In this document: piece after piece, positions 31,359-48,866 of the stretch
Layout of the letters: the number at the start of each line of letters is the position of its first letter
Position numbering within the stretch: position 1 is the first letter of the stretch
Source of the DNA: Planctomycetota bacterium
GTDB taxonomy: Bacteria > Planctomycetota > Planctomycetia > Pirellulales > PLA5
Reading direction: 5' to 3'
Assembly (NCBI GenBank): GCA_029259895.1
Contig: JAJDEG010000547.1
Span: 1-51,320, forward strand
DNA: 51,320 nt
Made by a program: the position numbers and the translations under genes
Notes under the pieces: generated by a model
What the model saw: the letters and a program-made list of their open reading frames with translations, nothing else
Told to the model about the DNA's origin: nothing
The model's database searches: none

Positions 31359-34300
31359 TTACGACCTGTTGCCGCGCAGGGACGTCTCATCATTGGCCAC
31401 GGCTGCGACGATCATCCGCAAACGATGGCTACCTTCGATGCCAAAACGTCTCGCGTATAGACGCCCTTGACGTTGCGCCCGCGTAGCGTTGTGCCTGCGG
31501 ACGTTGCCGAGATTGTCGGCAAACATACTTTTGGCCGCGAGCGTCCTGTCGACTGCGGCGTTTCGTTGCACGACGGGGAGCGCCGCGATCGGCGGGGCGG
31601 AAGGCGACGGCGAGCCAGCTAACGCCGTTGCAGCACGGCCGAATTCCTGTGCCAAAATGGCGGTGTCACGGCGGCCGACCACACCGTCGCCGTCGAGGTC
31701 GGCCGACAGCCCTGCGCCGCCGCTGCCAAGTTGCATTTGCAGCAGCGCTACGTCGTGTAATCCGACGATACCGTCGCCGTTAAGGTCGCCGAGCAACAGC
31801 GATGTGGAAAGGAATTCGTGTTCCAACGTGCCGATTTCGTCGACCGGCGGCGAAATGTGGACGCCATCGGCGAAGGCGTTATGAGCGTTGGACGTGAACA
31901 GGATATTCGACCAATCGGCGTAGCCCACCAAGCCCTGGCCTGGAGAAGCGCCGACGGCGGCATCGGTCGCGTTGATCGCGCCGTCGCCATTGGCGTCGAC
32001 GAAACCAGCGTTGAGGTCCGCCGCGACGCACGTGTCGTTCGACGCATTCCCGTCCCCATTGGCGTCGCCACGGCTGAAGTCAACGGCACCAACTTCGTCG
32101 GCAAGCTGTAGCGGCCAGGGACTCATCCGCACACGATGGTTATTCGTGTCGTGGGCGCCGCCGACGGCGAATTGCAGCCCCGCCGGCTCGTTGAGGCACG
32201 ACTCATCGAGCGTGCCGGCCGCGGCGCGGGAATAATCGAGCGCCCAACCCACGTTGACGTTTGGCGATTGCCAGTGGTAGTTCATTACGCTGTGGTAGTT
32301 GGGCTTGAAGTTGATATCGTCGCCGCCGCCGTGCCGCAGATTCAGCGTGTGGCCCAACTCGTGCATGAACGTGCCGGCCTGTTGGTCGGCGGTGCCGCCG
32401 GGTGTGGGCCACGCGCCGAGCGTGACCATGAAATCGTTGCCGGGCAATTCGGCCAGCCCGGACGAGCCGCCCGCCTCGTAGTTGTCGGCGAACACGGCGT
32501 AGCGGAAGACGCGCAACAGTGCGGCGCGAATGTTGGTCCAATTGCTGCTAACGCGTTGACCGGCGGTGCCGAAGCGGCCCTGCTTCACGGCGTCGAATTG
32601 CGTCCAAGCGTTGGTTTCGATTTGCGGCCAGGTGGGATTCGGCGTCGCAAGCGTCCACGCGACGCGGGGAATGTTCGTTTCGTCGAGCGTCACGTGGAGG
32701 TTAATGCCGTTCTGGCCGTCGGGATTGTTTACCAGATTGTTCGGTACGGCGGCGAACGCCTGTACGACGCGATTAAGCGTCGCCAGCGACGGCGCGCGGC
32801 CCGTCATGGCGTCCACCTCGACGAACACATCCTTGTGCATTGGATCGGCGCCCATCGCCGGTAGATTCAGATCGACCGTTCCATCGCCGTTGATGTCCAA
32901 GCCCTGGGTCTCCCACAGATCGAGCAAACCGTCGCCGTCGCTGTCGGGCAAGCCGCCCGGAATCTTGCTAGGCAAGTCGACGAGACTGACCGCCAAGCCG
33001 GTCGGACTTCCTGCAATCGGCGTCGCAAACCGCACGGAACCCTCGGCCGTAAGCGCGACGAGTTCGCCGGTGGAATAGGGCGGCACGGTTGTGTCGCGGG
33101 TCACGTATAGCCCGCCGTCTCGGCCCGGTTGGACATCCCTGGGATTGGACACCGGCCGCGCGGCAAGTTGCGCTCCTTGCGCGCTGAACAAACGCACCAC
33201 GTCGTCTTCGTCGGCGACCCAATAACCATTCGACGCCGCCGGGTTAAGAAGCAGTTGCCCTTGGTTGTTGTCCGACCAGACCAGCACGCCGCCCGTCGTC
33301 ACCGTGGCATCGCCGGGAATCGTCGGGTTCACATCCCAATCGTCGAGCACCGCGCCGTTGCGCGCGACGCGCACGATATGCCCGCGATTGGGCTGAGCGA
33401 CCAAAAAAGATCCGTCTTCGAGGACGTCGAAGCCAAAGGGATAGCGGGCCGAACGGGTGAACGGATCGTCGGGAAGCGCAAACTCGTTGGTGCGCGTCCC
33501 GCCCGGCGTGAACTCGAGAATCTTGCCGTCGCTGCCGGCGTTGCTTCCCACATCGAGCGCGACATAGATGAGGCCGCCTGGACCGATTTCGACGTCGCCG
33601 AGCGCGCCGGTCGAGAACAAAGGATCGGTGAAAGTGTCGACGAGCGCGCCGCCGGTGTTGTACGCGTAGATGGCGCCGCCGGCGGCCACGTAAATCCGCT
33701 CGGCCTGAATCGGGCCGTTGTAGGCAACGAGGTCGTATTGCGACAATGTGGCTTGCTCGAAGCCGCGGACGCGCAGCCGATAGACTTCGCCGGCGCGAAC
33801 CTGCCATTCGAGCGATTCGCTATCGCCGACGGTGGACGCTACGGCCAGCAAGTTGTCGGCGGCGTCGTAGAGATAAAGGTCGGCGTCGCCATCGGTCGCA
33901 TCGGCAAACAGGCTTGCGGTCAACTGGCCATCGCCGAGCGCCGTCCACTCGTACCAGTCCTCGTCTCCGGCGACATGAAGGCTGCGGCCGCGGACCGCGC
34001 CGTCCTCGAACGGCAACGGCGTGGGACTACCGCCACCGTCGTTCGGTTCGTCTTCGTCGATGGGAATCTCCGGTCCGTCGATCCACAGCGTGTAATCCGA
34101 ACTCAAGGCATCCAAGTAGCCGTGGACGCGAACGAAGTAAGTTCCGCCGGCAACGACCGGGGCGGTGAGAAACTCGTCGTCGGTTGTCGACGTTGCCGCG
34201 GTAAGCTGTCCACCATCGGCGTCCAGAAGTTGCAGATCAAGGTCACCCAGGGCGTGCTCGAAATACAGGTAGACATTGACGTCACCCGTCGCCGCGGCGA

Positions 34301-37300
34301 TCCAGGCGTAGTAGTCGTCGTCGCCCGGCGAATCGATCGTCAGGGCGTTCTCGATGCGGTCGCCCTCTCCCAAGAACGCGGCGGATTCAAGCGTGTCGTT
34401 GTCCTCGAATCGATCGACGGGAACGGCTGGGCCCGCAACGACCAGATCGTAGTCGAAGTGCACCGCGCCGGCAAATCCAACCGTGCGGATGTAGTAATTC
34501 TGGCCGCGGGCGACGTTGAGCGACACGTGTTCGTTGTCGTCGCTCGAAGTCGACGTGGCGAGCAACGACTGCTGCGCGTCGTAGACGTACAAATCGACAT
34601 CCCCCACATCGTGCTCGAAAACCAGATCGACCGTGAGGACGCCGTTGTCGGCGGCGGTGTAGCGAAATACGTCGTCGTTGTTCGGGATATGGATCGTGAG
34701 GTTCTCCAGCACATGATCGCCGGTTCCCAACCGCCGCGAGAACTCGAAGTCGTCGTTCGGTTCGTAGAAATCGGCGGGAACGGCGGGGCCGTTGATCCCC
34801 AAGTCGTACAATGGGTTTACGGTGCCGGCGTAGCCGTACACACGAACGTAGTACGTCTCTCCCGCGGTCACCTGATACGAAATAAACTCGTTGTCGTTGC
34901 TGCTGGTCGAACTGGCGACCGGTAGCCGATCGCCGTCGTACAACACCACGTCGACGTCCCCGGCCGCGTGGGTGAATATGACCGTGACCTGCAATTCGCC
35001 GTCGTCGGGCGCGTACCAGCGGAAGTAATCGTCGTTGTTGGAGACGTGAATCGACAGTCCGTTTTCCACGCGGTCGCCCGTGCCCAATACGGCCGCCGTG
35101 GCGAAATCGTCGTTGTTCTCGAACCGATCGCCGGGCGGCTCCGGCAGATCGATGCGCAGGTCGTAGTCCGGGTTCACCGCGCCGTTGTAGCCGTATATCC
35201 GCAGATAGTACGTTTGGTTGGCCACGACGCTGGCGACGATCTGCTCGTTGTCCGTGCCGCTGGTCGATGACGTAATGAGATTGTGGAAATCCGTCCCGTC
35301 GTGCAGCGAGATGTCGACGTCGCCGAGGTCGTCGTCGAACAGCAGGTCGATCGTTGCCGTTCCTGTTGCCGGCGCAATAAATCGAAAATAATCGTCGTTG
35401 TTGCGATGGATTGTCAGGTCGTCGCGCGCGACATCACTGGCCCCCAAGTTGCGGGCGAACTCGAAGCTGTCGTTCGGTTCGAGCGCGTCGCGCGGAACGC
35501 CGGTGAAGTCGAGGTAGAACGACATCGTCGGCCCGACTGCGGAGATGTCCGTGATCACGATGTCGCTGGCCGTGCCGTCGTTCCAGGCGGAACTGGGCGA
35601 CGTGACGGCGTTGAATTCGCTCGACGTGTTGTCCCAGAAACCGTCGTTCGCGGTGGGAGAGGCCGAGTGCTCGCGGGAAATGAACGCCGGCGCGTTGAAA
35701 TCGTTGCCGCGAAACGCCGACAGCCGCGTCTCGTCGACGTGCCAGATGGCCAGTCCCTGATCGGGAACGCCGGCCGCGGTCTGGCCGATCGGCACGTAGT
35801 CGGAGTCTCCCAGCCCGGAAATATGGCTGATCGTATTGGTCGGCGAGTCGTACGATCCCGGCCGCCAGCGGTTCTCGATCAGGAAATACTCGTTCGCGTT
35901 GCGCTGGACGCGCAGCACTTTCCCGCCATGTTCCGACGCCGCCAACGTGTACCAGCCGGGCGTGCTGGCGGCGGTCGGGGTGAGCCACCCCAGCCGCGAC
36001 TTGGTCCACGGGTCGTGATGGAAGCTGCCCGCCACGTTGAGCGTGGCGCCCATCGTCGCCCAGCGCGAGAAGCCCACCCCAACGCCGCCGACGTTCTCGT
36101 AGTTGTAGATGTCGAGCGCATCGCCGTGCAGCACGTGGCTGATTTCGTGGGCCAGCGTGATCCACGTGGCGAATTGCCCCGCCCCGGCTTCGGCGAAACT
36201 CTCGCGCAGCACGACACCGTCGTCCGTGTGGTAGTCTTCGTTGACGGAGGGATCGGCGTTGAAGTTCCGCACGTTGGCGCCGTCCCAGAGGTATCCGGCG
36301 AACGTGCCGCTGGTGGCCGCGCAGTTGGCGCTCGCCTGCGCGCTGGTCCAGAAGTCGTACAGCCCGCGACGGTGGGCGTAGTACTGTCGTTGGTAGGCCG
36401 CCGCGGCGCCCGATCCGTTGAGCGTGCCTTCGACGATGTCGAATACGCGGCCGCTCGCAGGATCGACGTCGCTGGTGCGCGCGAATGACCCAGTCGCGAA
36501 ATCGGTTTCCGGTCGCAGCGTACATTTGTGATAGCTGGCGTCGACGTCGCCGCCAATGGAGATGATTACCAATTCGTTCGCGGTCACCTCGCCGTCATTG
36601 TTTGTGTCGTACACGGAAAAGTTGAACCACGGGTCGGCGTGGACGACTGCCAGCCGGCGTTTGGCCTCTGGGCTAAGCGTATGGGCGGGAAACGTCACCG
36701 GACCGACGATCCCGTCGTAAACGAGGTCGCCTCCCTGCGGATCGAGGATTTCGCCGAGCGTGGCCGGCACGAGCGTCAACTTGCCGTTCGAATTCTCCTT
36801 AAAGTAATCGACGAGGTTATGACGCGGTTCGGCCAATAGCGCGTCGACTGCGGATAGCGATGCAATCGCCGTCGTCGATGCGCGATGCGACACGGAGAAG
36901 CCGGCGGCGGTGATGTGCAAACCGGGCCCGTCGCCCGACGCAATCAAATCGAAACCGGGACCGAAAGAAGTGTGCGTTCCCGCAGCGGCAAAGAGTTCGA
37001 CGGTCGCACCGCCCGTGTGATCGAAATATACGAGATCGAGCGTATGCGTTCCGGCGGTGAGCGAGCGCGTGCCGAACGTATCGCGCGCGGAGTGCAATGC
37101 GTCGTCCACGATCAGGTCGACACCATCGATGCGCAGTCGCGCGCCGTCGTCGCTGTTGACGCCGAACGTCCACGCTCCGGCCTGCGCGGCGGTGACGTTG
37201 AGCGTGGCCGTGGCGTGGATGACGAACTCGTCGCCTCCTCCGTGAGGAAACAGGGCGTCCGAAGGAAAACGTCCTTGGCTGCCGCCCGCGGTGTCCGAGA

Positions 37301-37547
37301 AGTTGATGGCCGACCTTGTCACCGGCGCCGCGACGCCGCCACTGCCGTCGAGAAGACCGCGATAAAAATACGGATCGTGGTCGGGGTGAAACGTGTTTTC
37401 GTATCCCGGTCCGTTGTTGACCAGAATTACCAGAATCGGCACGTTACCCACCGATGTGAGCAACCGTCGGTCCTCAAGAGGTTCGATGCGGAGGCGGCGG
37501 GCATTCGAACGGTGATCGCGTCGCGCCACTTTTCGCCGAGTGCTCAT
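31359..37547 (-). CDS. Large secreted protein: PA14-like N-terminus, M6-type metallopeptidase region, five PPC-like repeats, beta-propeller-like region, second zinc-metallopeptidase, dockerin type I
   Basis: RLRIEPLEDRRLLTS export motif; TLAHEISHVLHGD; five repeats like PNDSFEFARNLG...NNDDYFRF; FMHELGHTLNLRHGGGDDINFKPNYHSVMNY; GDLNGDGIVGLHDVALLQMQLG...DLDGDGVVGRRDTAILAQEFG. Confidence 0.9.
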   Translation of the reverse strand: MSTRRKVARRDHRSNARRLRIEPLEDRRLLTSVGNVPILVILVNNGPGYENTFHPDHDPYFYRGLLDGSGGVAAPVTRSAINFSDTAGGSQGRFPSDALFPHGGGDEFVIHATATLNVTAAQAGAWTFGVNSDDGARLRIDGVDLIVDDALHSARDTFGTRSLTAGTHTLDLVYFDHTGGATVELFAAAGTHTSFGPGFDLIASGDGPGLHITAAGFSVSHRASTTAIASLSAVDALLAEPRHNLVDYFKENSNGKLTLVPATLGEILDPQGGDLVYDGIVGPVTFPAHTLSPEAKRRLAVVHADPWFNFSVYDTNNDGEVTANELVIISIGGDVDASYHKCTLRPETDFATGSFARTSDVDPASGRVFDIVEGTLNGSGAAAAYQRQYYAHRRGLYDFWTSAQASANCAATSGTFAGYLWDGANVRNFNADPSVNEDYHTDDGVVLRESFAEAGAGQFATWITLAHEISHVLHGDALDIYNYENVGGVGVGFSRWATMGATLNVAGSFHHDPWTKSRLGWLTPTAASTPGWYTLAASEHGGKVLRVQRNANEYFLIENRWRPGSYDSPTNTISHISGLGDSDYVPIGQTAAGVPDQGLAIWHVDETRLSAFRGNDFNAPAFISREHSASPTANDGFWDNTSSEFNAVTSPSSAWNDGTASDIVITDISAVGPTMSFYLDFTGVPRDALEPNDSFEFARNLGASDVARDDLTIHRNNDDYFRFIAPATGTATIDLLFDDDLGDVDISLHDGTDFHNLITSSTSGTDNEQIVASVVANQTYYLRIYGYNGAVNPDYDLRIDLPEPPGDRFENNDDFATAAVLGTGDRVENGLSIHVSNNDDYFRWYAPDDGELQVTVIFTHAAGDVDVVLYDGDRLPVASSTSSNDNEFISYQVTAGETYYVRVYGYAGTVNPLYDLGINGPAVPADFYEPNDDFEFSRRLGTGDHVLENLTIHIPNNDDVFRYTAADNGVLTVDLVFEHDVGDVDLYVYDAQQSLLATSTSSDDNEHVSLNVARGQNYYIRTVGFAGAVHFDYDLVVAGPAVPVDRFEDNDTLESAAFLGEGDRIENALTIDSPGDDDYYAWIAAATGDVNVYLYFEHALGDLDLQLLDADGGQLTAATSTTDDEFLTAPVVAGGTYFVRVHGYLDALSSDYTLWIDGPEIPIDEDEPNDGGGSPTPLPFEDGAVRGRSLHVAGDEDWYEWTALGDGQLTASLFADATDGDADLYLYDAADNLLAVASTVGDSESLEWQVRAGEVYRLRVRGFEQATLSQYDLVAYNGPIQAERIYVAAGGAIYAYNTGGALVDTFTDPLFSTGALGDVEIGPGGLIYVALDVGSNAGSDGKILEFTPGGTRTNEFALPDDPFTRSARYPFGFDVLEDGSFLVAQPNRGHIVRVARNGAVLDDWDVNPTIPGDATVTTGGVLVWSDNNQGQLLLNPAASNGYWVADEDDVVRLFSAQGAQLAARPVSNPRDVQPGRDGGLYVTRDTTVPPYSTGELVALTAEGSVRFATPIAGSPTGLAVSLVDLPSKIPGGLPDSDGDGLLDLWETQGLDINGDGTVDLNLPAMGADPMHKDVFVEVDAMTGRAPSLATLNRVVQAFAAVPNNLVNNPDGQNGINLHVTLDETNIPRVAWTLATPNPTWPQIETNAWTQFDAVKQGRFGTAGQRVSSNWTNIRAALLRVFRYAVFADNYEAGGSSGLAELPGNDFMVTLGAWPTPGGTADQQAGTFMHELGHTLNLRHGGGDDINFKPNYHSVMNYHWQSPNVNVGWALDYSRAAAGTLDESCLNEPAGLQFAVGGAHDTNNHRVRMSPWPLQLADEVGAVDFSRGDANGDGNASNDTCVAADLNAGFVDANGDGAINATDAAVGASPGQGLVGYADWSNILFTSNAHNAFADGVHISPPVDEIGTLEHEFLSTSLLLGDLNGDGIVGLHDVALLQMQLGSGGAGLSADLDGDGVVGRRDTAILAQEFGRAATALAGSPSPSAPPIAALPVVQRNAAVDRTLAAKSMFADNLGNVRRHNATRAQRQGRLYARRFGIEGSHRLRMIVAAVANDETSLRGNRS

Positions 37548-37837
37548 GGCAATGCTCCGGTGTGCAGAAGGAACGAGCCCACGTGCGCCGTGTCGTCCAT
37601 CACAACGCCATTTACAATAACCAAACTCCGAACTTCCCTCAAATATGATGCCAATCGGCAAACGGAATCATCTCGCAGCACCGCTACGCTTTTTCGGCAA
37701 GGTTGAGTCGCGGCAAACGCGCGCGTCGCCATACTGCCGCGCGGTGCGTGCGATTTCGCGCTAGGGAATACTGCCGTGTCGCACTTGATCTGCATGGTCG
37801 GTCGATCACAATCTGCCGCGAGCTAACCGCCAACCTG

Positions 37838-38090
37838 CCCCACCGCCTCCACCAAGTCGCTCGTGCCCAGGTGCGCGTACCGACCTATCGTAGCGTGATC
37901 GTCGCATGCTTGGCCACAGGCGATCTTCGCGGACCCGCCGTCGCTCCGTTTCGCATTTCGCTAGATACGTTCGTAGACGCCCGCGAAGATCGTTGGTCAG
38001 CGGCAACACGCACTTGCTACTGTTCTTTGAATTGCGTGCGTCGACGGTCAGGGTCGTTCGGGAGCGGCGCGGCGTAATGCGGGCCGGCGC
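37838..38090 (-). pseudogene. Tyrosine recombinase remnant (copy A, internally deleted)
   Basis: Minus-strand ITPRRSRTTLTVDARNSKNSSKCVLPLTNDLRGRLRTYLA (integrase beta-sheet/catalytic N-part), followed by DNA 37838-37917 that aligns to copy B 45857-45941. Confidence 0.6.
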
Positions 38091-38450
38091 GCAGTCGCGG
38101 GCCTTCGCGGCGACGCGAACGGAGCGGTCCATCGGCGAGCGGCATCTCGTCGTGTCTCCCGTGCCCCCTGGCTCGCCAAATTCAAAGGTCGTACCACGAG
38201 CGGTGTTCTTACCTGGCTTTGGGGCGCGAGTTTTGCAGACTATATACATACCCTGCGATGTCGGAGTGCTGCAGACGCTGCTGACATGAAGGCGTCCGGA
38301 GGGGGAGAATTTGCATGTGGGAGTGAACGAGCGGGCATAGACACGACGATCGGCCGTGCGAACTTGCGCGATGACGTGCGTTTTCGCATAGCACGATGTG
38401 GTGGCGAGGAGTTCAATTACGGCGCACGCACACATCAGAGGGAAAGAACA

Positions 38451-39860
38451 ATGTTGTCGCGCATTTTGGCATACATTTTCGTTTCTGTGGTCGTTCTGTT
38501 GACGGTCGCGGCGGGTGGCCGCGGCGAGGTGATCAATTACCGTTTTGGCGGCGTAACGGTCGACTGGCACGAGGTCAGCAACTGGGACGCCGGTCGAGTG
38601 CCCGGCGATGGCGATATCGCGGTGTTCGACGGCCGTTCGGATTGGACGCGCGTCATCAGCGGCAACACGGCGGGGATCGATGGGTTGACGGTCCGCAACG
38701 GGGCAGACGTTCACAACTGGGGCAACCTGATCCTCGTCGACGAAGCCTCTTCCGCTCTGACGTTGATCGACGGCGTGGCCGACGGAACGGTAAGGGCATC
38801 GGTCACCGTCCAGGCTACGTCGCAAGCGCGCGGATTCGATACCGATTTGCTGTCGATCGAAAACGGCGGCGAGCTCGCGCTGTTGGCCGGCGTGGCCGAA
38901 ATCGACGTCGATGCCGACGTCGACGCGGCGAGCCGAATCTACGGTACAGGGATCGTCCGCTTCGGCAACAGCGGCACGCCGGCGGGCGTGCAGGTGCTCA
39001 ACAACTCTGGCACGATCGAGGTCGGCCCGGAGGCGTTCGCACCCATTCGCGACTTGCGGCTCGAGGCCCGCGGAGGAGGATGGCTCGATTTGGACGGCGA
39101 CAACGAGCAAGGTGAGTTGATCGTCGACGGCGACGGCGGCAGAATGCTGATCGTCGACGGACCGCTGGCCGATGCGTTTAGCGGCACGCTGCGGATCGGC
39201 GCGTCCGACACGGCGCAATTCAATGATCCGTGGTTCCTCACCAACGGAACGATAGAATTCGACTCGGAAGTCTTCGCCAGCGGCACGCTGACCGGCGCCG
39301 CGGTCTCCGCGACCAACGCGACGATCACGGCGGTTGACGCGGAGATTCTATGCGACTTCCTGCTCAACAGCGGTACGTTCGCCGTCGATTACCGACTTCG
39401 CCTCGACGGCGACGCCACGTTCGCCACGGCGGCCGACTTGCAACTCGACGGCGCTGGCGGAGGGTTTATCATCGCCGGCACGACGACCATCAACCAGTCG
39501 GTCGTCGATCTGGATGCAGACTTCGAACTGTTGCGAACGGATGGCGGCGGAGCGCGTGTAGGCGATGGTCCAGAACAAGCCCGGCAGCGACGCCGACGGC
39601 GTGCCGACGACGTCGTCGAACGCGCCGCTGCGGCTATCGAACGTCAGGACCGTAAACCGCTCGCCCAATACTGCTTCGTCGAAGCCGATCGCCGACGCAT
39701 TCAACGCGCCGGCCAGGTCTGTCAGTCCATCGACGTGCAGCACGTCAAATTGTCCGGCGGCGATGCCTTCGATGTCGATTACCAATACGCCGGCGGCAGT
39801 CTGGCGGTAGTTGGACACTCGCGCTTCCCCAATCACTTTGCCGACGTGCAGCGTCCCTAG
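38451..39860 (+). CDS. N-terminal part of a secreted autotransporter-like/PEP-CTERM protein; ORF interrupted after about codon 364 by an inverted segment
   Basis: Signal peptide MLSRILAYIFVSVVVLLTVAAGGRGEV; VDWHEVSNWDAGRVPGDGDIAVFDG...; sensible sequence until ...VDLDADFELLRTDGG, then antisense-like Arg-rich tail. Confidence 0.75.
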   Translation: MLSRILAYIFVSVVVLLTVAAGGRGEVINYRFGGVTVDWHEVSNWDAGRVPGDGDIAVFDGRSDWTRVISGNTAGIDGLTVRNGADVHNWGNLILVDEASSALTLIDGVADGTVRASVTVQATSQARGFDTDLLSIENGGELALLAGVAEIDVDADVDAASRIYGTGIVRFGNSGTPAGVQVLNNSGTIEVGPEAFAPIRDLRLEARGGGWLDLDGDNEQGELIVDGDGGRMLIVDGPLADAFSGTLRIGASDTAQFNDPWFLTNGTIEFDSEVFASGTLTGAAVSATNATITAVDAEILCDFLLNSGTFAVDYRLRLDGDATFATAADLQLDGAGGGFIIAGTTTINQSVVDLDADFELLRTDGGGARVGDGPEQARQRRRRRADDVVERAAAAIERQDRKPLAQYCFVEADRRRIQRAGQVCQSIDVQHVKLSGGDAFDVDYQYAGGSLAVVGHSRFPNHFADVQRP

Positions 39861-41549
39861 GTTATCGACCGCCAGATCAACGACGGCCGCGTCGTTGAGC
39901 GTGAGCGTGCTGCCCGCACGATTGCGAAGCACGCCCGAGCCGGTGAACACGGCACCCGATTCGACCACGCCGTCGGCATCGACATTCAACTGGCGGGCCG
40001 ATGGGATGTCGGTGCGGCTCGACGCCCGAAACCGCGTTTCCACGTCGAACGTGGAGGTCGCGGCAACCGTGCTGTTTCCGTACAGTTCCAGCGTTCCGAC
40101 GCCCGACATGTCGCCGCCCTCGAAGGTCGTATCGCCGTTGAGTTCCAACACGCCGGCGACGGCGACGCTGCCGGCCGCGCCGAACGTCGCGTCGTCGTAT
40201 GTCTCCATTCGTCCACCGGCGGCAATCGCCACGCCGCCGCCCTGTTGCGTGAAGCGACCATTCTGTCGCAGCACGCCCGTCGGGCCGACGTAAAGGTATC
40301 CGGCGTCTTCCATCGTCGAGTCAGCATCGACGTCGGCCGGCCCGCCGCTGGCGTGCAACGACCCGGCCAGGACCATCGGCGAACCGGCGAGGCGAGGCGT
40401 CTGGCCGAGCGTATGCGTCAGGTTCATCTGGCCTTCCATCCGCCACGGCTCGCGAATGAACAGCGGACCGGGAGCATAGATGACGTACCCGGTATTGACG
40501 ATTAGCTCCCCACCGTCGACGTCGACGACGTCGTCGAAGCCGTCGGTAGCTGGATTGCCGCTGTCGATAGTGCCTACGTTGAGCGCGAACCTCGTGCCCG
40601 CCGAGATCGTTGTCACCGCGCCGTCGGCAGCCGCGCCGTCCCAGTCGAACACGCCCAGCCGATCCTCGACCGTACCGCCGATCGTTGTATCGGAAATGAC
40701 GAAAACCTCGCCGGCTTGGACGATCGTCCCTTGCCCGCCATACGTTCCGCCGTCGTAGTAGGTCGCCGCCCGAAGCTCCAACACATCGGTCGCATTCGGA
40801 ACCGACACGACGGCGTCGGACAGGAAGCGGACTGTCGTCGTGTCGACGATGCCTTCTCCGTCAACGGCGACGGAACCGGCGATCCGCACGGCTTGGCCCT
40901 CCAGCCGGCCGCCGCCGGAGAATTCCAGATTCCCCGCCATGATCCAGTAGTCAGTCGCGACGGGCAATTGAATATCGAGCCGCCCGGAACCGTTGATTTC
41001 GATCGTGTCGTCGTTGAACTGGTTGGAGCCGCCGTCGTCGATGGCGTCGACCTCAAGCGTGAGCGGGCTGTTGATCACCAGCCGGTCCGCGCCGGTGCTG
41101 ACGCCGTCGAGATCCACCACGTTGACGGTCATTGTCGTCGGTCCCGCGATCGTCGTCGTCGTGGCGTCGAGTTTGAGTTCCCCGGCGCCGGACCATTGGC
41201 CGCCGTCGATCACCGTATAGGGTCCATTCAACACCAACGTCCCGCTGAACACGCGAACGTCGGCGGCGCTGGTGAACTCGGTGCTCGCGCCGATGCGGGC
41301 GATTCCGCCCAGGCCGGCGCCCCCGACGAACAGCTCGTCTCCAAACGCCGCCGAACCGATCGTCAACGGCGTTCCGCGAATTTCGGCGATACCGGCCGCC
41401 GGGTCGGTGTCGAATCGGAGGCGGCCGTTCGACACCCATCCGCCGGGCACGTTCACTTCCAGCGTGGCGCCGCCCTGAATCGTGATTTGGCCGTCGAAAT
41501 CGTTGTCGTCGTTGTCCAGCGAGTCGACGTTGAGAATCAGCTCGCCGCC
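39543..41549 (-). pseudogene. Inverted central coding segment (2007 bp, 669 codons) of the same secreted protein
   Basis: Minus frame GGELILNVDSLDNDDNDFDGQITIQGGATLEVNV...SLPGLFWTIAYTRSAA is protein-like but has no start/signal peptide and runs into antisense at both ends; bounded by GGCGGCG (39543-39549) and CGCCGCC (41543-41549). Confidence 0.8.
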
Positions 41550-41876
41550 GGCAAGGACATCCTGTCCGTATCCGCCTTGCCCGGCGACATCAACCTCGAC
41601 GGCAAGGTCAATCGAAAGGACTCGGCCCTGATCGCCAAATACTTCGGTATGCAAACAGGCAGCACTTGGATCACCGGCGACTTCGATACCGACGGCGCGA
41701 CGACGATGGCCGATCTGGCGTTGCTGCAATCGCACTTGGGTTTGGCGGTACCGTCACCGTCGTCTGCCGACGCAGTGCCCGAGCCGTCGAGTCTGTTCTT
41801 GGTCGTCTGTGCCATGATTGCCGCGGTAGCAGCTCGGACGCGTCGTGCATTCCACGTTCAACAACCAAAAACGTAA
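41550..41876 (+). CDS. C-terminal dockerin + PEP-CTERM sorting segment, now detached from its N-terminus
   Basis: GKDILSVSALPGDINLDGKVNRKDSALIAKYFGMQTGSTWITGDFDTDGATTMADLALLQSHLG...AVPEPSSLFLVVCAMIAAVAARTRRAF. Confidence 0.85.
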   Translation, partial: GKDILSVSALPGDINLDGKVNRKDSALIAKYFGMQTGSTWITGDFDTDGATTMADLALLQSHLGLAVPSPSSADAVPEPSSLFLVVCAMIAAVAARTRRAFHVQQPKT

Positions 41877-41987
41877 CCGGTTGCGAGTTCGACTCCCTTA
41901 CCGTCGGCTTCCGTAAGTCCTTGCCACAGCCTATCTAATATCAAGCGGGGTCGCCAGTTATGGTGCCCTCTTGGCTCTCGGTGGTGC

Positions 41988-42066
41988 GGTTTCTTGGGTG
42001 CAAATTGGGGCGTACTGTGCCGGCGGAGGGCGAGTTTGATGGCACCATCTTGGGCACCCTTGGTCG
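41988..42066 (-). pseudogene. Putative tyrosine-recombinase C-terminal tail remnant (copy R2)
   Basis: Minus-strand VPKMVPSNSPSAGTVRPNLHPRNRTTESQEGTITGDPA*; similar to R1. Confidence 0.4.
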
Positions 42067-42540
42067 GCGTCTGCGCAACGTGTGGCTCTGTGCAACGCAC
42101 TGAGCCAAGTCCGCACACCGCCTACGTTCAGTGTGTCCGTCGTCGCGCCACGCGGGACGATCCGCTAAACTCCAATCCACAATGCCGCTAAGCGGCCGGA
42201 TCGTGCGACCTCGCACAGGTGTGCTCGCCGGTGTGCGCGACAGCTCGCACGCCATCGTGTCATGGATGGGTGCACGAAAACGGTCGCTCGCTGCGTGTCG
42301 TTTTTCCGCAGAACAACAGCACGTGTGTGTGGCAGGTACATGGCGGCATTGATGAGTCGATCGTCGTTATGCGTGGCCTTCATTCTTCGCGCGCCCGCCA
42401 CGGAGATCACGTAGGCGTCGCTGTCGCGATCGATGCGCCCTCCTGTGGCACGCGATGTGCTGCATAGAAAGCCGCAACGCTCCGCTCTAAAGCAAGCACG
42501 ACATGGACATCTGCGAACTTGGCGACGCAAAGGCGATCCG

Positions 42541-42816
42541 ATGAATCTGACGCGAGATCTGAAAAATGAGCCCGTCCGTAAGCTCTCCTTGCGCGACGCC
42601 GTCGCCATTGGGTCGACCACGACGCTTGGCGAGGCCGTCGCAGCGATGCGTGGCGCGCATCTCGGTTGCGCGGTAATCGTCGATGATGCCCATCGGCCCA
42701 CGGCAATGTTTACGGAACGCGGGTTGGCAGAATACTTATTCGAGTACTTTCCACAGCAGGTCGCCGTGCAACGGTTAGGCAACGCGCCGTGGATGCATGC
42801 ACGAGAAGGAGCTTGA
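42541..42816 (+). CDS. Single CBS-domain protein
   Basis: VRKLSLRDAVAIGSTTTLGEAVAAMRGAHLGCAVIVDDAHRPTAMFTERGLAEYLFEY. Confidence 0.7.
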   Translation: MNLTRDLKNEPVRKLSLRDAVAIGSTTTLGEAVAAMRGAHLGCAVIVDDAHRPTAMFTERGLAEYLFEYFPQQVAVQRLGNAPWMHAREGA

Positions 42817-42818
42817 AA

Positions 42819-43316
42819 ATGACGGATGATTCAGGCGGTTACGACAATGAATTCGTCGATCCGTTGAGTGATTATGATCCACGGACCTACGAGAGTGAGA
42901 TCGCGCAATCCCTCGTCGAGGATCCGGTGAGTACGATTCCGTCGCGACCGTACGCGCATATCGATTCGGCGACTTCGGTCGCCAGCGCCGTTCAAGTGCT
43001 GCATGGGCTAAATGCGTCATGCCTGTTGGTCGTCGATGCGAATCGCCTCGTCGGAGTTTTTACGGAACGTGATGTTGTTGAGCGCGTAGCCAATGATTTT
43101 CCAGCAATCGCCGATCGCCCCGTTCGAGACGTGATGACCGCGGACCCGTTGGTTCTCGACGAGCGCGATCCCGCGGGCGCAGCGCTGGCGGCCATCGTAG
43201 CCGGTGGCTACCGGCACGTGCCGGTGCTGAACGCAGGCGGAGACGTGATGGGGGTGGTAAGCCCGCGCCGAGTATTCGCGTTTTTCGAGCGGCACTTCCA
43301 GCGAGGGCCCCGGTGA
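42819..43316 (+). CDS. CBS-domain pair protein
   Basis: SVASAVQVLHGLNASCLLVVDANRLVGVFTERDVVERVANDF...VRDVMTADPLVL...GYRHVPVLNAGGDVMGVVSPRRVFAF; agaaggag RBS. Confidence 0.85.
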   Translation: MTDDSGGYDNEFVDPLSDYDPRTYESEIAQSLVEDPVSTIPSRPYAHIDSATSVASAVQVLHGLNASCLLVVDANRLVGVFTERDVVERVANDFPAIADRPVRDVMTADPLVLDERDPAGAALAAIVAGGYRHVPVLNAGGDVMGVVSPRRVFAFFERHFQRGPR

Positions 43317-43957
43317 AGGGACGCGCGTCGCTTAATCTTGATGGCAGTTCCGCAGTCCGCTATCGCGGACAGTCTTGCGACGGCACCGGTAGTTCTGGGT
43401 TCGACTTCTCGCCGGGGAACGCCGGGCGTACGGCGTGCCGCCGCCGGTCAACCGGTTGACTCCAGAACTTCGTACAGCGGGCGGAACAAGAGACGAACCG
43501 CTCGTGCTCGATCACTCACCGGACGCCATCGACCAACAATGGGCTTGTGGACTGCGGGATCGTTTTGACGGCCGGCCGGTGGACGTTTGCTTCAATCAAG
43601 ATTGAGGGGCGATTGACTATGCCTTGCTCACGAACAAGTTCTTGGCGTTATTCCCTCTGCCTCCGGCTCGACTCGCTCGATATCGGAAGTCGCGCCATAC
43701 GAGCGGTGCCAAGTTTCTACCGGGGGGGCGTCGGCGCGGCCGTCAATCGCGTGTTCGGGCGGTAGCGCTCGGCCGCGACGCGACGCAAATCGCTCATCCG
43801 CAGGTGCGGCATTCGTGCGAATCCGCGCACCGTATGCGACGCTTCGGTCGGCGAATTAAAATGAGGTGCGAATCCAAAACTGTGGCTCGAATTCGATCGA
43901 GCGGGCGTCGCCGATACCGAATACCCATCGCCCTTACCGGCCAATAGGAATCCATCG

Positions 43958-45700: not shown

Positions 45701-45856
45701 GCGGCGTGTGGCTCGTGCGCAATTGGCCGCGCATATCTTGACGATCGAGCACACGTCATTCCCAATCGGCGTTTGGGACGCGGTCTGCTTGAAGTCGATA
45801 CCGCTCGACTGTCAGGCGTCAGGCGACGATCGTCTGTCCGCAGTCCATCGAGGCCT

Positions 45857-46092
45857 CCCCACCGCCTCCACCAGATCGCCCATGCCCAGGTGCGTGTACC
45901 GCGATCCGTCGTCAGCGTGATCGTCGAATGCCGGGCCAGCGCCTGAGTGCCCTTCGGCGGAACGCTGGCCGCGACGAGGTGCGTGATGAAGCCGTGGCGG
46001 AGCGAATGGAAGTCGACGACTTGGCCAGCGGCGTCAATGTCGCGGACAGGTCGGTCCGACGTGATTCGCCGGCAGCTTGGAGTTGCAACCAC
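45857..46092 (-). pseudogene. Tyrosine recombinase C-terminal remnant (copy B)
   Basis: Minus-strand VRDIDAAGQVVDFHSLRHGFITHLVAASVPPKGTQALARHSTITLTTDRGTRTW: HxLRHxF...RHS catalytic boxes, frameshifted near the Tyr box. Confidence 0.75.
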
Positions 46093-46401
46093 AAAGTGCC
46101 CAATCGATCAGTGCAAATCGCGGCAGATTTACCAGCACCACGGGAAGCACTGCGACGTTTCGCCGTCGTCGCAACTTCAAACCGTTTCTGCCGATACGTC
46201 AAAACGGTCTCCGGCCTCCGAAGCCGACGGAAGAATTCGATTGAAACGGTGTTGTATTTGATTACCGCCTCTGGAATCGCGCAGCGTGACCGGGCGGGTC
46301 GAGAGGAAGCGTGGGCGGGAGCGGCGGTTTGTGCGGCGGGAGCGTGACCGGCCGACGGGAGAGCGAATGGCGAACGGGCGGGTGCGGTCCGTGGCGTCCG
46401 T

Positions 46402-47638
46402 TTATGGTGGAAGTGGAAGCGGCAGGCGCGAGCGGCGGACGGCGGAGAACCAGGCGAGAGCGTCGTGTCCGCGTTGTTTTAGCGTGACCGAGAGCGAGGT
46501 GAGAACGCCTTGGATCCACGCGCCGCGCCACATGCGGTTGCCGCCCCACACTTTGCGATTGACGACGGCGGGACGAATCGCCCGCATCGGCGCGTTCGTC
46601 GCCGTTGAGCCGATGGCCGCGCCACGCTCGGCGCACGGCGAACGCCTCGTCGCACAACGCCAACACGCGCCGCGGCAACAGCACGGCGCCGCGGACGGCG
46701 GCTTCCAACAATTCCCGACAACGCCGCTGCAAATGGCCGACGCACTGCTGATGAGCGGCCTGCGTGAACCGGTTGTAGACGCTCCAACCGTCGTGAATCA
46801 TCGTGTGCGACCAGTCCGCGCCCAACAACCGCTCGGCGATGTCGCCGCTGCGGTCGCCGATTTCATAACACGTCGCGGTCTCGCCGACGAACACGTGCAG
46901 CCAGGCGTTCTTGCCACCAACGCGCCAGCCGGTCTCGTCGGGCACAACCCACCGCGAGCCGCGCACGGCCGCCCGCAGCTCGTCGTGCGCGTTCCGAGAC
47001 CGCTCGGCCGTACGCCGCAAACTGCGCACGCCGGTGGCCCGCGCGATCGAGATGCCGAACAGGTCGCGAAAGAATCGTTGGCATTTGCCGTGCGGCAGGC
47101 CGCGGCCTTTGTTCAACGTGACCAGCGCGGCGTGCGCGTCGGGGCCGAGTTGGCTGGCCGCCGCGCCGAGGGCGTCGCTCGTTTGCAGCGCGTGGCGTCC
47201 TTGCACGCGGCGGCTGCAATCGCGACACTTGCCGACCCGAACGGTGAACTCGCGGTGGATCGGCCGTCGCGGAATCTCGGTTTGATACTGCGCGGCCGCG
47301 TGCGTCGCTTTGACGTGCTCTCCGCCGCTGTGTGGGCACGCCGTCGGCAACGGCGCGTCGTACCGCTCGTCGATCCGCGGCGGCGGAATCGCCGCGCGAT
47401 GGGCGTGTCGTCCATGACGCCGGCCTCGCTTGCGGCCCGGCTTCTTCGGCTCGGCGGCCGGGCCGTCTGCCTGGCGAAATGGCGCCGCCTGATGTTTGCC
47501 GCTGCGCCGCGCCGCTTCCAACGCGGCCACCAGTTTGGTCACTTGCCTACGAAGCTTGGCCAACTCACGCCGCAAACACTCGTTCACCGCCCGCAGCGCG
47601 GATTTCTCGGCAGCCAGTTCCCGAAGTCTCGTATCCAT
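46402..47638 (-). mobile_element. IS66-family transposase, internally deleted and frameshifted (pseudogene)
   Basis: MDTRLRELAAEKSALRAVNECLRRELAKLRRQV..., CxxC-type zinc region, VVPDETGWRVGGKNAWLHVFVGETATCYEIGDRSGDIAERLLG; after ALCDEAF the next ~100 aa expected in IS66 are missing and MRAIRPAVVNRKVWGGNRMWRGAWIQGVLTSL continues in another frame. Confidence 0.8.
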
Positions 47639-47720
47639 AACACGGCAAAACATGCCGCGCAACCGCCCAGCAGAGCAAGATCAATTCTGACTGAAGGTGG
47701 TAAACAAATACCACTCACGG

Positions 47721-48866
47721 TCATTGGCGAAGCCGTATTTGAATTCTTCGCGCCGCCATCGCGGCGTCTTCGTCGCGGCGCACGAAATACAGTTCGGTGG
47801 TGCGAATATCCGCGTGCCCCGCGAATTGTCGGACCTCGTGCATTTGAGCGCCGTTGCGAATCGCGTCGTTGATGGCGGACTTGCGCAGAGAGTGAATGCC
47901 GATGCCGCGAGCACCGAGCCGCTCTGGATCGATGCCCGCGGCTCGACAGTAGCGCTTCACGAGCCGCCACGGCGTTTTGCGATCGAGGTGCCGGCGTTTG
48001 AAACCTGTACTGTCTCGCCGCATCGGTCGAAACAGCGGTCCCTCGATGTCCTCCTTGATGCCGGCAGCATCCATGTACACCAGTATCGGCCGCGCCGCAT
48101 CGAGGAGGATCTTGCGCGCTTTCTTGTTGCGCTTCTCCGTGACGTTGAGGTAATATTCGACCCCGTCAAACTCCAGATGCCCAACGCATGCGCCGATGAT
48201 CGCTGAGACCCGGCAACCCGTGATGAAAAACGTCTGCAACATGGCGAAGTCTCGAACTCCCTGAAGCGTATCAGTGGAAATTGCCTTCAGAAGTTCAACG
48301 GCCTGCTTGCTGGTCAGCGCCGGCGTCGTGTTCTTGGCGACCGGCGGCGCTTTGACAGCCGCGATTGCCTGAGCGGTTTCCCAGGAGATGAGCCCCTTGG
48401 AGGCGAATTGCTGATAAGCGCCGCGAAGGACCGATAGGCGGCGTGCGATCGTCGTCGGCCGCATTCCTGCTCTGAGCAGCGCCGCCTTGTAAAGCCTTAC
48501 GTGGTCCGCGTTCACCGCCAGCGGCTCGACACCCAGTCCACGCAGGTGATGCACGAAGTGCGCCAGATCGCGACCGTACCCTTCGATCGAATGCTCCGAC
48601 AAAAGCACGTCGCAGACCCAAGGTACGAGCGCACTGGCAGGACTGTGCCCCGACGAACTCGATCCTACGGCGGGAATGACACGCATGAGGAACGCCGCGA
48701 TTCGTTCGTTGACCGAAAGATCTCCGTCTGCTTGGAGTGCTTGCCTGGGTGCCGACGATACGATTCGATCGACCGGCGACTCCACGGTGAGGTCGCCGGC
48801 GGGCTTCGTCACGTTGTTCTCCGGAGCTTTTCCGCCCAAGTCAATCGCGGGTTTCTCGCTCATCAA
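47721..48866 (-). CDS. Tyrosine recombinase / phage integrase family protein (apparently intact)
   Basis: SAM-like N-domain (SIEGYGRDLAHFVHHLRGLG), TGCRVSAIIGACVGHLEF, IHSLRKSAINDAIRNGAQMHEVRQFAGHADIRTTELYFVRR (catalytic R...HxLR...GH...Y). Confidence 0.9.
   Translation of the reverse strand: MMSEKPAIDLGGKAPENNVTKPAGDLTVESPVDRIVSSAPRQALQADGDLSVNERIAAFLMRVIPAVGSSSSGHSPASALVPWVCDVLLSEHSIEGYGRDLAHFVHHLRGLGVEPLAVNADHVRLYKAALLRAGMRPTTIARRLSVLRGAYQQFASKGLISWETAQAIAAVKAPPVAKNTTPALTSKQAVELLKAISTDTLQGVRDFAMLQTFFITGCRVSAIIGACVGHLEFDGVEYYLNVTEKRNKKARKILLDAARPILVYMDAAGIKEDIEGPLFRPMRRDSTGFKRRHLDRKTPWRLVKRYCRAAGIDPERLGARGIGIHSLRKSAINDAIRNGAQMHEVRQFAGHADIRTTELYFVRRDEDAAMAARRIQIRLRQ

Follow-up and report, generated by a model that had tools for sequence, protein, structure and literature searches.

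The question raised by positions 38451 to 41876 of the window (the whole stretch of 51,320 nucleotides that was analyzed, which is the complete contig C498) is whether what appears to be one surface-protein gene with its center on the opposite strand is a phase-variable gene, a pseudogene, an artifact, or several genes. Inspection of the sequence and its open reading frames gives three stop-free pieces in the order plus, minus, plus, accompanied by two further elements.

38437..38446, plus strand: Shine-Dalgarno-like stretch AGAGGGAAAG, preceding the ATG at 38451
38451..39542, plus strand: N-terminal piece, 364 codons, with the signal peptide and the first repeats (profile positions 23-350)
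39543..39860, plus strand: nonsense tail read after the N-terminal piece as the gene now stands, closed by a stop
39543..41558, minus strand: inverted middle piece, of 672 codons if the 5-bp joint discussed below is used, or 669 codons (39543-41549) if the 7-bp joint is
41559..41876, plus strand: C-terminal piece, with a dockerin type I domain, a PEP-CTERM sorting signal and the stop codon TAA

Flipping the middle piece on paper yields a single ORF of 1141 aa with no internal stops, and the layout proposed by the sequence-only reading (three protein pieces that form one re-inverted ORF, the minus-strand middle lacking a start and a signal) was thereby reproduced. The middle piece also lacks its own stop near its end, and matches the homologue profile on the minus strand at model positions 359-651, 332-503 and 859-1021. 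In the C-terminal piece the Pfam match to Dockerin_1 is above the cut-off (E 9.6e-9, 35.8 bits), while the match to PEP-CTERM (E 9.5e-4, 19.6 bits) falls slightly below the curated cut-off of 20.7; the PEP-CTERM region contains the motif VPEPSS, a hydrophobic stretch and RTRR. Three Exosortase_EpsH genes above the cut-off are found in the same genome. The full-length re-inverted product is thus predicted to be a secreted, repeat-rich dockerin surface protein that would be sorted by an exosortase through its PEP-CTERM signal. This product cannot be made from the present allele, in which the ORF from 38451 spans 470 codons, stop included. The first stop on the plus strand is met only ~300 bp past the end of the coding signal of the N-terminal piece, and the coding score per codon is 0.07 in the nonsense tail versus 0.24 in the N-terminal piece.

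The ancestral state of the gene was probed using homologues. Related genomes carry single ORFs of 1054-1233 aa that align with the re-inverted protein from end to end; the named hosts are MAGs of Pirellulales and Planctomycetales. The alignment covers residues 12-1121 with the homologue in G048 (E 9e-91) and residues 33-1133 with that in G024 (E 2e-82), and G039 and G056 likewise carry single-ORF, colinear homologues. Separate searches with the N-terminal and middle pieces against 58 related genomes led to a single shared ORF in G048, where the two occur in the re-inverted order. With a profile built from six homologues, the inverted gene itself being left out, the re-inverted protein (7-bp joint) scores 343.5 bits versus 97.5, 205.2 and 32.9 bits for the N-terminal, middle and C-terminal pieces. 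A search of 148 genomes of the same order with a profile of the same kind gave, among the matches listed, near full-length colinear single-ORF homologues in 13 genomes and no strand switch within a homologue; the corresponding search of the organism's own genome gave 65 matches, with a strand switch in this contig only. At the DNA level, the same-genus comparison left the gene as a whole unmatched, the matches being confined to repeats, to the C-terminal stretch and to paralogues, and no close relatives of the middle piece were found in the genome contigs searched. Because of the colinear single-ORF homologues, the profile scores and the codon-based strand switches described below, the sequence evidence indicates that an intact ancestral gene has undergone an internal inversion. 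The proposal of a secreted dockerin/PEP-CTERM gene with its center inverted in frame consequently agrees with both the Pfam matches and the homologues, and the comparison suggested along with it, that of the re-inverted ORF with homologues, did return colinear, near full-length relatives. Measured against the ancestral gene, the present arrangement is inverted, and this is probably real in the organism.

The sites of exchange were originally placed at a 7-bp inverted repeat, whereas a second, shorter match lies close by.

39539..39543, plus strand: GGATG, left arm of the 5-bp match, from the breakpoint scan and the sequence
41558..41562, minus strand: right arm of the 5-bp match, CATCC in plus-strand letters, from the same sources
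39543..39549, plus strand: GGCGGCG, left arm of the 7-bp repeat, probably coincidental by the chance estimate
41543..41549, minus strand: right arm of the 7-bp repeat, CGCCGCC in plus-strand letters, probably coincidental

The 7-mers are indeed present where the sequence-only reading located them, but homology favors the joint at the 5-bp match. Of 2601 in-frame breakpoint pairs scored with the homologue profile, the best joint is (39540..39543)/(41561..41558), at 354.2 bits versus 343.5 bits for the 7-bp joint; it falls on GGATG/CATCC and lies, on one side, 9 bp to the right of the 7-bp joint. In the 5-bp version, the ancestral N-terminal joint reads LLRTD-VLAGGELILNV, where the three additional residues (VLA) restore the usual repeat spacing, and the C-terminal joint reads YTRSAA-ILSVSALPGDIN, equal in length to YTPTTAVLTTSALAGDID of a same-genus relative. 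The ancestral joint sequences are GAACGGATGTCCTTGCCGGCGGCGAGCTG and CGCTCCGCCGCCATCCTGTCCG. A codon-usage Viterbi analysis, which takes no input from homology, switches strand at 39552/39553 and 41547/41548, giving an inverted stretch of 39553-41547; given these switches and the profile optimum, the breakpoint positions are uncertain by about 10-15 bp. Within 9-12 bp of a random breakpoint pair in this gene, an in-frame inverted match of at least 7 bp is expected with P ~0.04-0.06, or P ~0.13-0.17 at the same tolerance when the frame condition is dropped, and an in-frame match of at least 5 bp within that tolerance has P ~0.25-0.35. No longer inverted repeat flanking the segment was found around the two breakpoints. 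Neither match is strong evidence for a recombination site, and the 7-bp repeat is probably coincidental, since homology points to the other joint and a match of this length comes close to what chance gives; its role as the inversion site is not upheld. Both joints are clean and reciprocal, with no sequence gained or lost.

The reading that best accounts for these results, to which we assign a probability of roughly 60%, is a single recent inversion of the microhomology type that produced a fresh pseudogene. An intact 1141-aa surface-protein gene would have stood at the locus, its product sorted to the envelope by an exosortase, and its ~2.0 kb middle would have been flipped by one recent illegitimate event at the ~5 bp inverted match (GGATG/CATCC). 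The present allele would then supply the first 364 residues followed by the nonsense tail, devoid of the middle repeats, dockerin and anchor, and it is because only this product can be made that the allele is regarded as a pseudogene. We infer that the mechanism was illegitimate, that the change is irreversible and that function was lost. The re-inverted gene contains no stops and no frameshifts over 1141 codons, and 2.25% of substitutions would create a stop, so neutral divergence since the inversion is below about 4%. The inverted piece and the N-terminal piece have nearly the same score per codon (0.25 and 0.24). These results bear out the original description of a gene that is off in its present orientation and undecayed, a state that fits a recent event and a reversible switch alike. 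A point against the single-event account is the presence of an intact tyrosine recombinase ~6 kb away and of many tyrosine and serine recombinases in the genome.

Genes that encode surface proteins are among the classic targets of phase variation, a further point against a single event. The alternative of programmed phase variation, in which a site-specific recombinase flips the segment as an on/off switch for the surface protein and most of the sampled population is in the off state, is unlikely, although it survives better than the other alternatives. It gains from the identity of the product as a surface protein, the clean reciprocal joints, the undecayed sequence and the many recombinase genes in the genome, and flipping the segment does restore an intact, homologue-supported gene. 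The end repeats, in contrast, are not longer than chance would give (5-7 bp; P ~0.04-0.35, depending on length and tolerance), and those at described invertible loci are longer, at 12 bp in Mycoplasma penetrans and 21-51 nt in Ureaplasma (PMC3047005). The genome has 12 resolvase-domain and 33 phage-integrase matches, none tied to the breakpoints, and a search of the assembly for an IS110/Piv-type recombinase found none. A frequent second orientation is also unlikely given that the de Bruijn contig is unbroken, since an abundant one should have split it at both joints. Furthermore, no second gene of this kind was seen in the surveyed part of the genome or, among the matches listed, in the family. 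That survey applied a codon model to 1.09 Mb, in 80 stretches of the genome picked to take in many dockerin/PEP-CTERM contigs, and found no other in-frame intragenic inversion; it recovered 57 of 76 implanted test inversions (~75% for ORFs of at least 700 aa). The sole second candidate to pass a lenient filter, L183:16959-19083, was rejected as ordinary convergent genes because stops close both of its convergent frames within 60 bp. A literature search by title or abstract found no described case of a phase-variable surface protein in the planctomycete phylum. The locus has neither a long inverted repeat nor an invertase tied to it, the assembly shows a single orientation, and the surveyed genome and family gave no second case; the claim of phase variability is therefore not sustained. 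The more specific proposal, that an exosortase-sorted planctomycete surface protein is turned on and off by a reversible inversion within its gene at exchange sites with no more than 5-7 bp in common, much shorter than at known invertible loci, is quite improbable.

Misassembly had been named as a live alternative from the start, and in its broader form (a true genome with the intact gene, and an inversion created by misjoining or by chimeric molecules) it is improbable. The assembly is a draft of metagenome type, with 7.19 Mb in 791 contigs, and chimeric amplification molecules often contain inverted sequences joined at short complementary stretches (PMC1855051). Such chimeras mostly carry an intervening deletion (PMC1855051), while the two joints seen here are reciprocal and lossless and would need two independent chimeras; no further cases were found in the 1.09 Mb surveyed. 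There are no Ns in ~1.1 Mb (~1.04 Mb from other contigs plus the window), and at the ends of many contigs exactly 141 bp recur in other contigs, a hallmark of de Bruijn assembly at a final k of 141 that suggests a MEGAHIT-like assembler. Because repeats of 5 or 7 bp are too short to misjoin de Bruijn contigs, the present orientation is probably in the reads and dominant, and the assembly contains no second copy or other orientation of the gene. The misassembly alternative is weakened by this. The exact 141-bp overlaps are also useful for judging rearrangements elsewhere in this assembly.

The neighborhood of the gene contains several features of mobile elements.

37827..38056, minus strand: tyrosine-recombinase (integrase) gene remnant, upstream of the inverted gene
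41872..42061, plus strand: degenerate tRNA-Ser 3' end with att-like flank, starting at the gene's stop codon and repeated in many contigs
45854-46046: second integrase remnant
46262-47662: IS66-like transposase frame, named from sequence only
47721..48866, minus strand: complete tyrosine recombinase ORF of 381 aa, the nearest intact recombinase

The two decayed integrase fragments belong to the same tyrosine-recombinase family and flank the inverted gene, CBS-like genes and an HSP70-like gene. The tRNA-Ser 3' end with its ~150-bp att-like flank was seen in about 10 contigs and also in a same-genus genome; it is part of complete tRNA-Ser genes in C717 and G001:C196, with a tyrosine recombinase gene ~300 bp away from the C717 copy, and partial copies occur in many contigs. 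Together they represent a family of tRNA-Ser-targeting integrative elements with multiple copies. The window was also scanned for Rfam families and tRNAs, with no matches. The start of contig G000:C9 is a second copy, 77-90% identical, of window positions 41924-43416 (att flank and CBS-domain-like genes), and is a diverged duplication of this island segment. On the other side, adjoining the inverted gene, positions 31359-37661 of the minus strand encode a secreted protein of 2100 aa with PA14, four PPC domains, a dockerin, a planctomycete extracellular signal and weak reprolysin-like metallopeptidase matches.

The tRNA-Ser/att repeat, the integrase remnants and the nearby recombinase place the inverted gene among remnants of tRNA-Ser-targeting integrative elements. 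A causal link from these elements to the inversion is speculative because the breakpoints have no att similarity. Tyrosine recombinases can act on a short identical core, and the gene has remnants of an integrase and of a tRNA-Ser att site on its two sides; an off-target inversion by one of the tyrosine recombinases of the neighboring elements is nevertheless very unlikely, as the att sequence is unlike either breakpoint and dyad arms around the breakpoints were not seen by eye. Finally, although the pieces do occupy different strands, a layout of two or three independent genes is refuted, since in relatives all three pieces form a single ORF arranged as in the re-inverted gene, the minus-strand piece has no start, signal or nearby stop of its own, and the N-terminal piece stays open past its coding signal.

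The inversion most likely represents an ordinary mutation that inactivated the gene. It offers a clean, near base-resolved intragenic event that is reversible on paper and can be checked against homologues. It also illustrates that inverted alleles get sampled in uncultured planctomycetes, where they risk being annotated as two or three unrelated genes. If both orientations exist, the locus would be a phase-variable planctomycete surface protein with unusually short sites.

Several known systems invite comparison. Six PEP-CTERM/dockerin repeat proteins of Pirellulales have the same full-length architecture as the re-inverted protein, but their genes are intact and uninverted. In the UU172/mba loci of Ureaplasma, as here, the inversion site lies within a surface-protein gene and the products are truncated or chimeric; those loci have repeats of 21-51 nt and demonstrated switching, in ~1-2% of the population (PMC3047005), neither of which is seen for this gene. 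Intragenic invertons, as they are cited in PMC11868660, have a segment inside a coding gene inverted such that the product is changed or truncated. The present gene shares the position of the inverted segment within a coding gene, but has been seen in one orientation, has a match of 5-7 bp and lacks support for reversibility. The intragenic invertons of Chanin and co-workers (2024) were reportedly called from reads in both orientations. With pseudogenes formed by microhomology-mediated (illegitimate) inversion this gene shares a short chance match at the joints, a single event and disruption of the gene, and it differs from them only in being so clean and recent.
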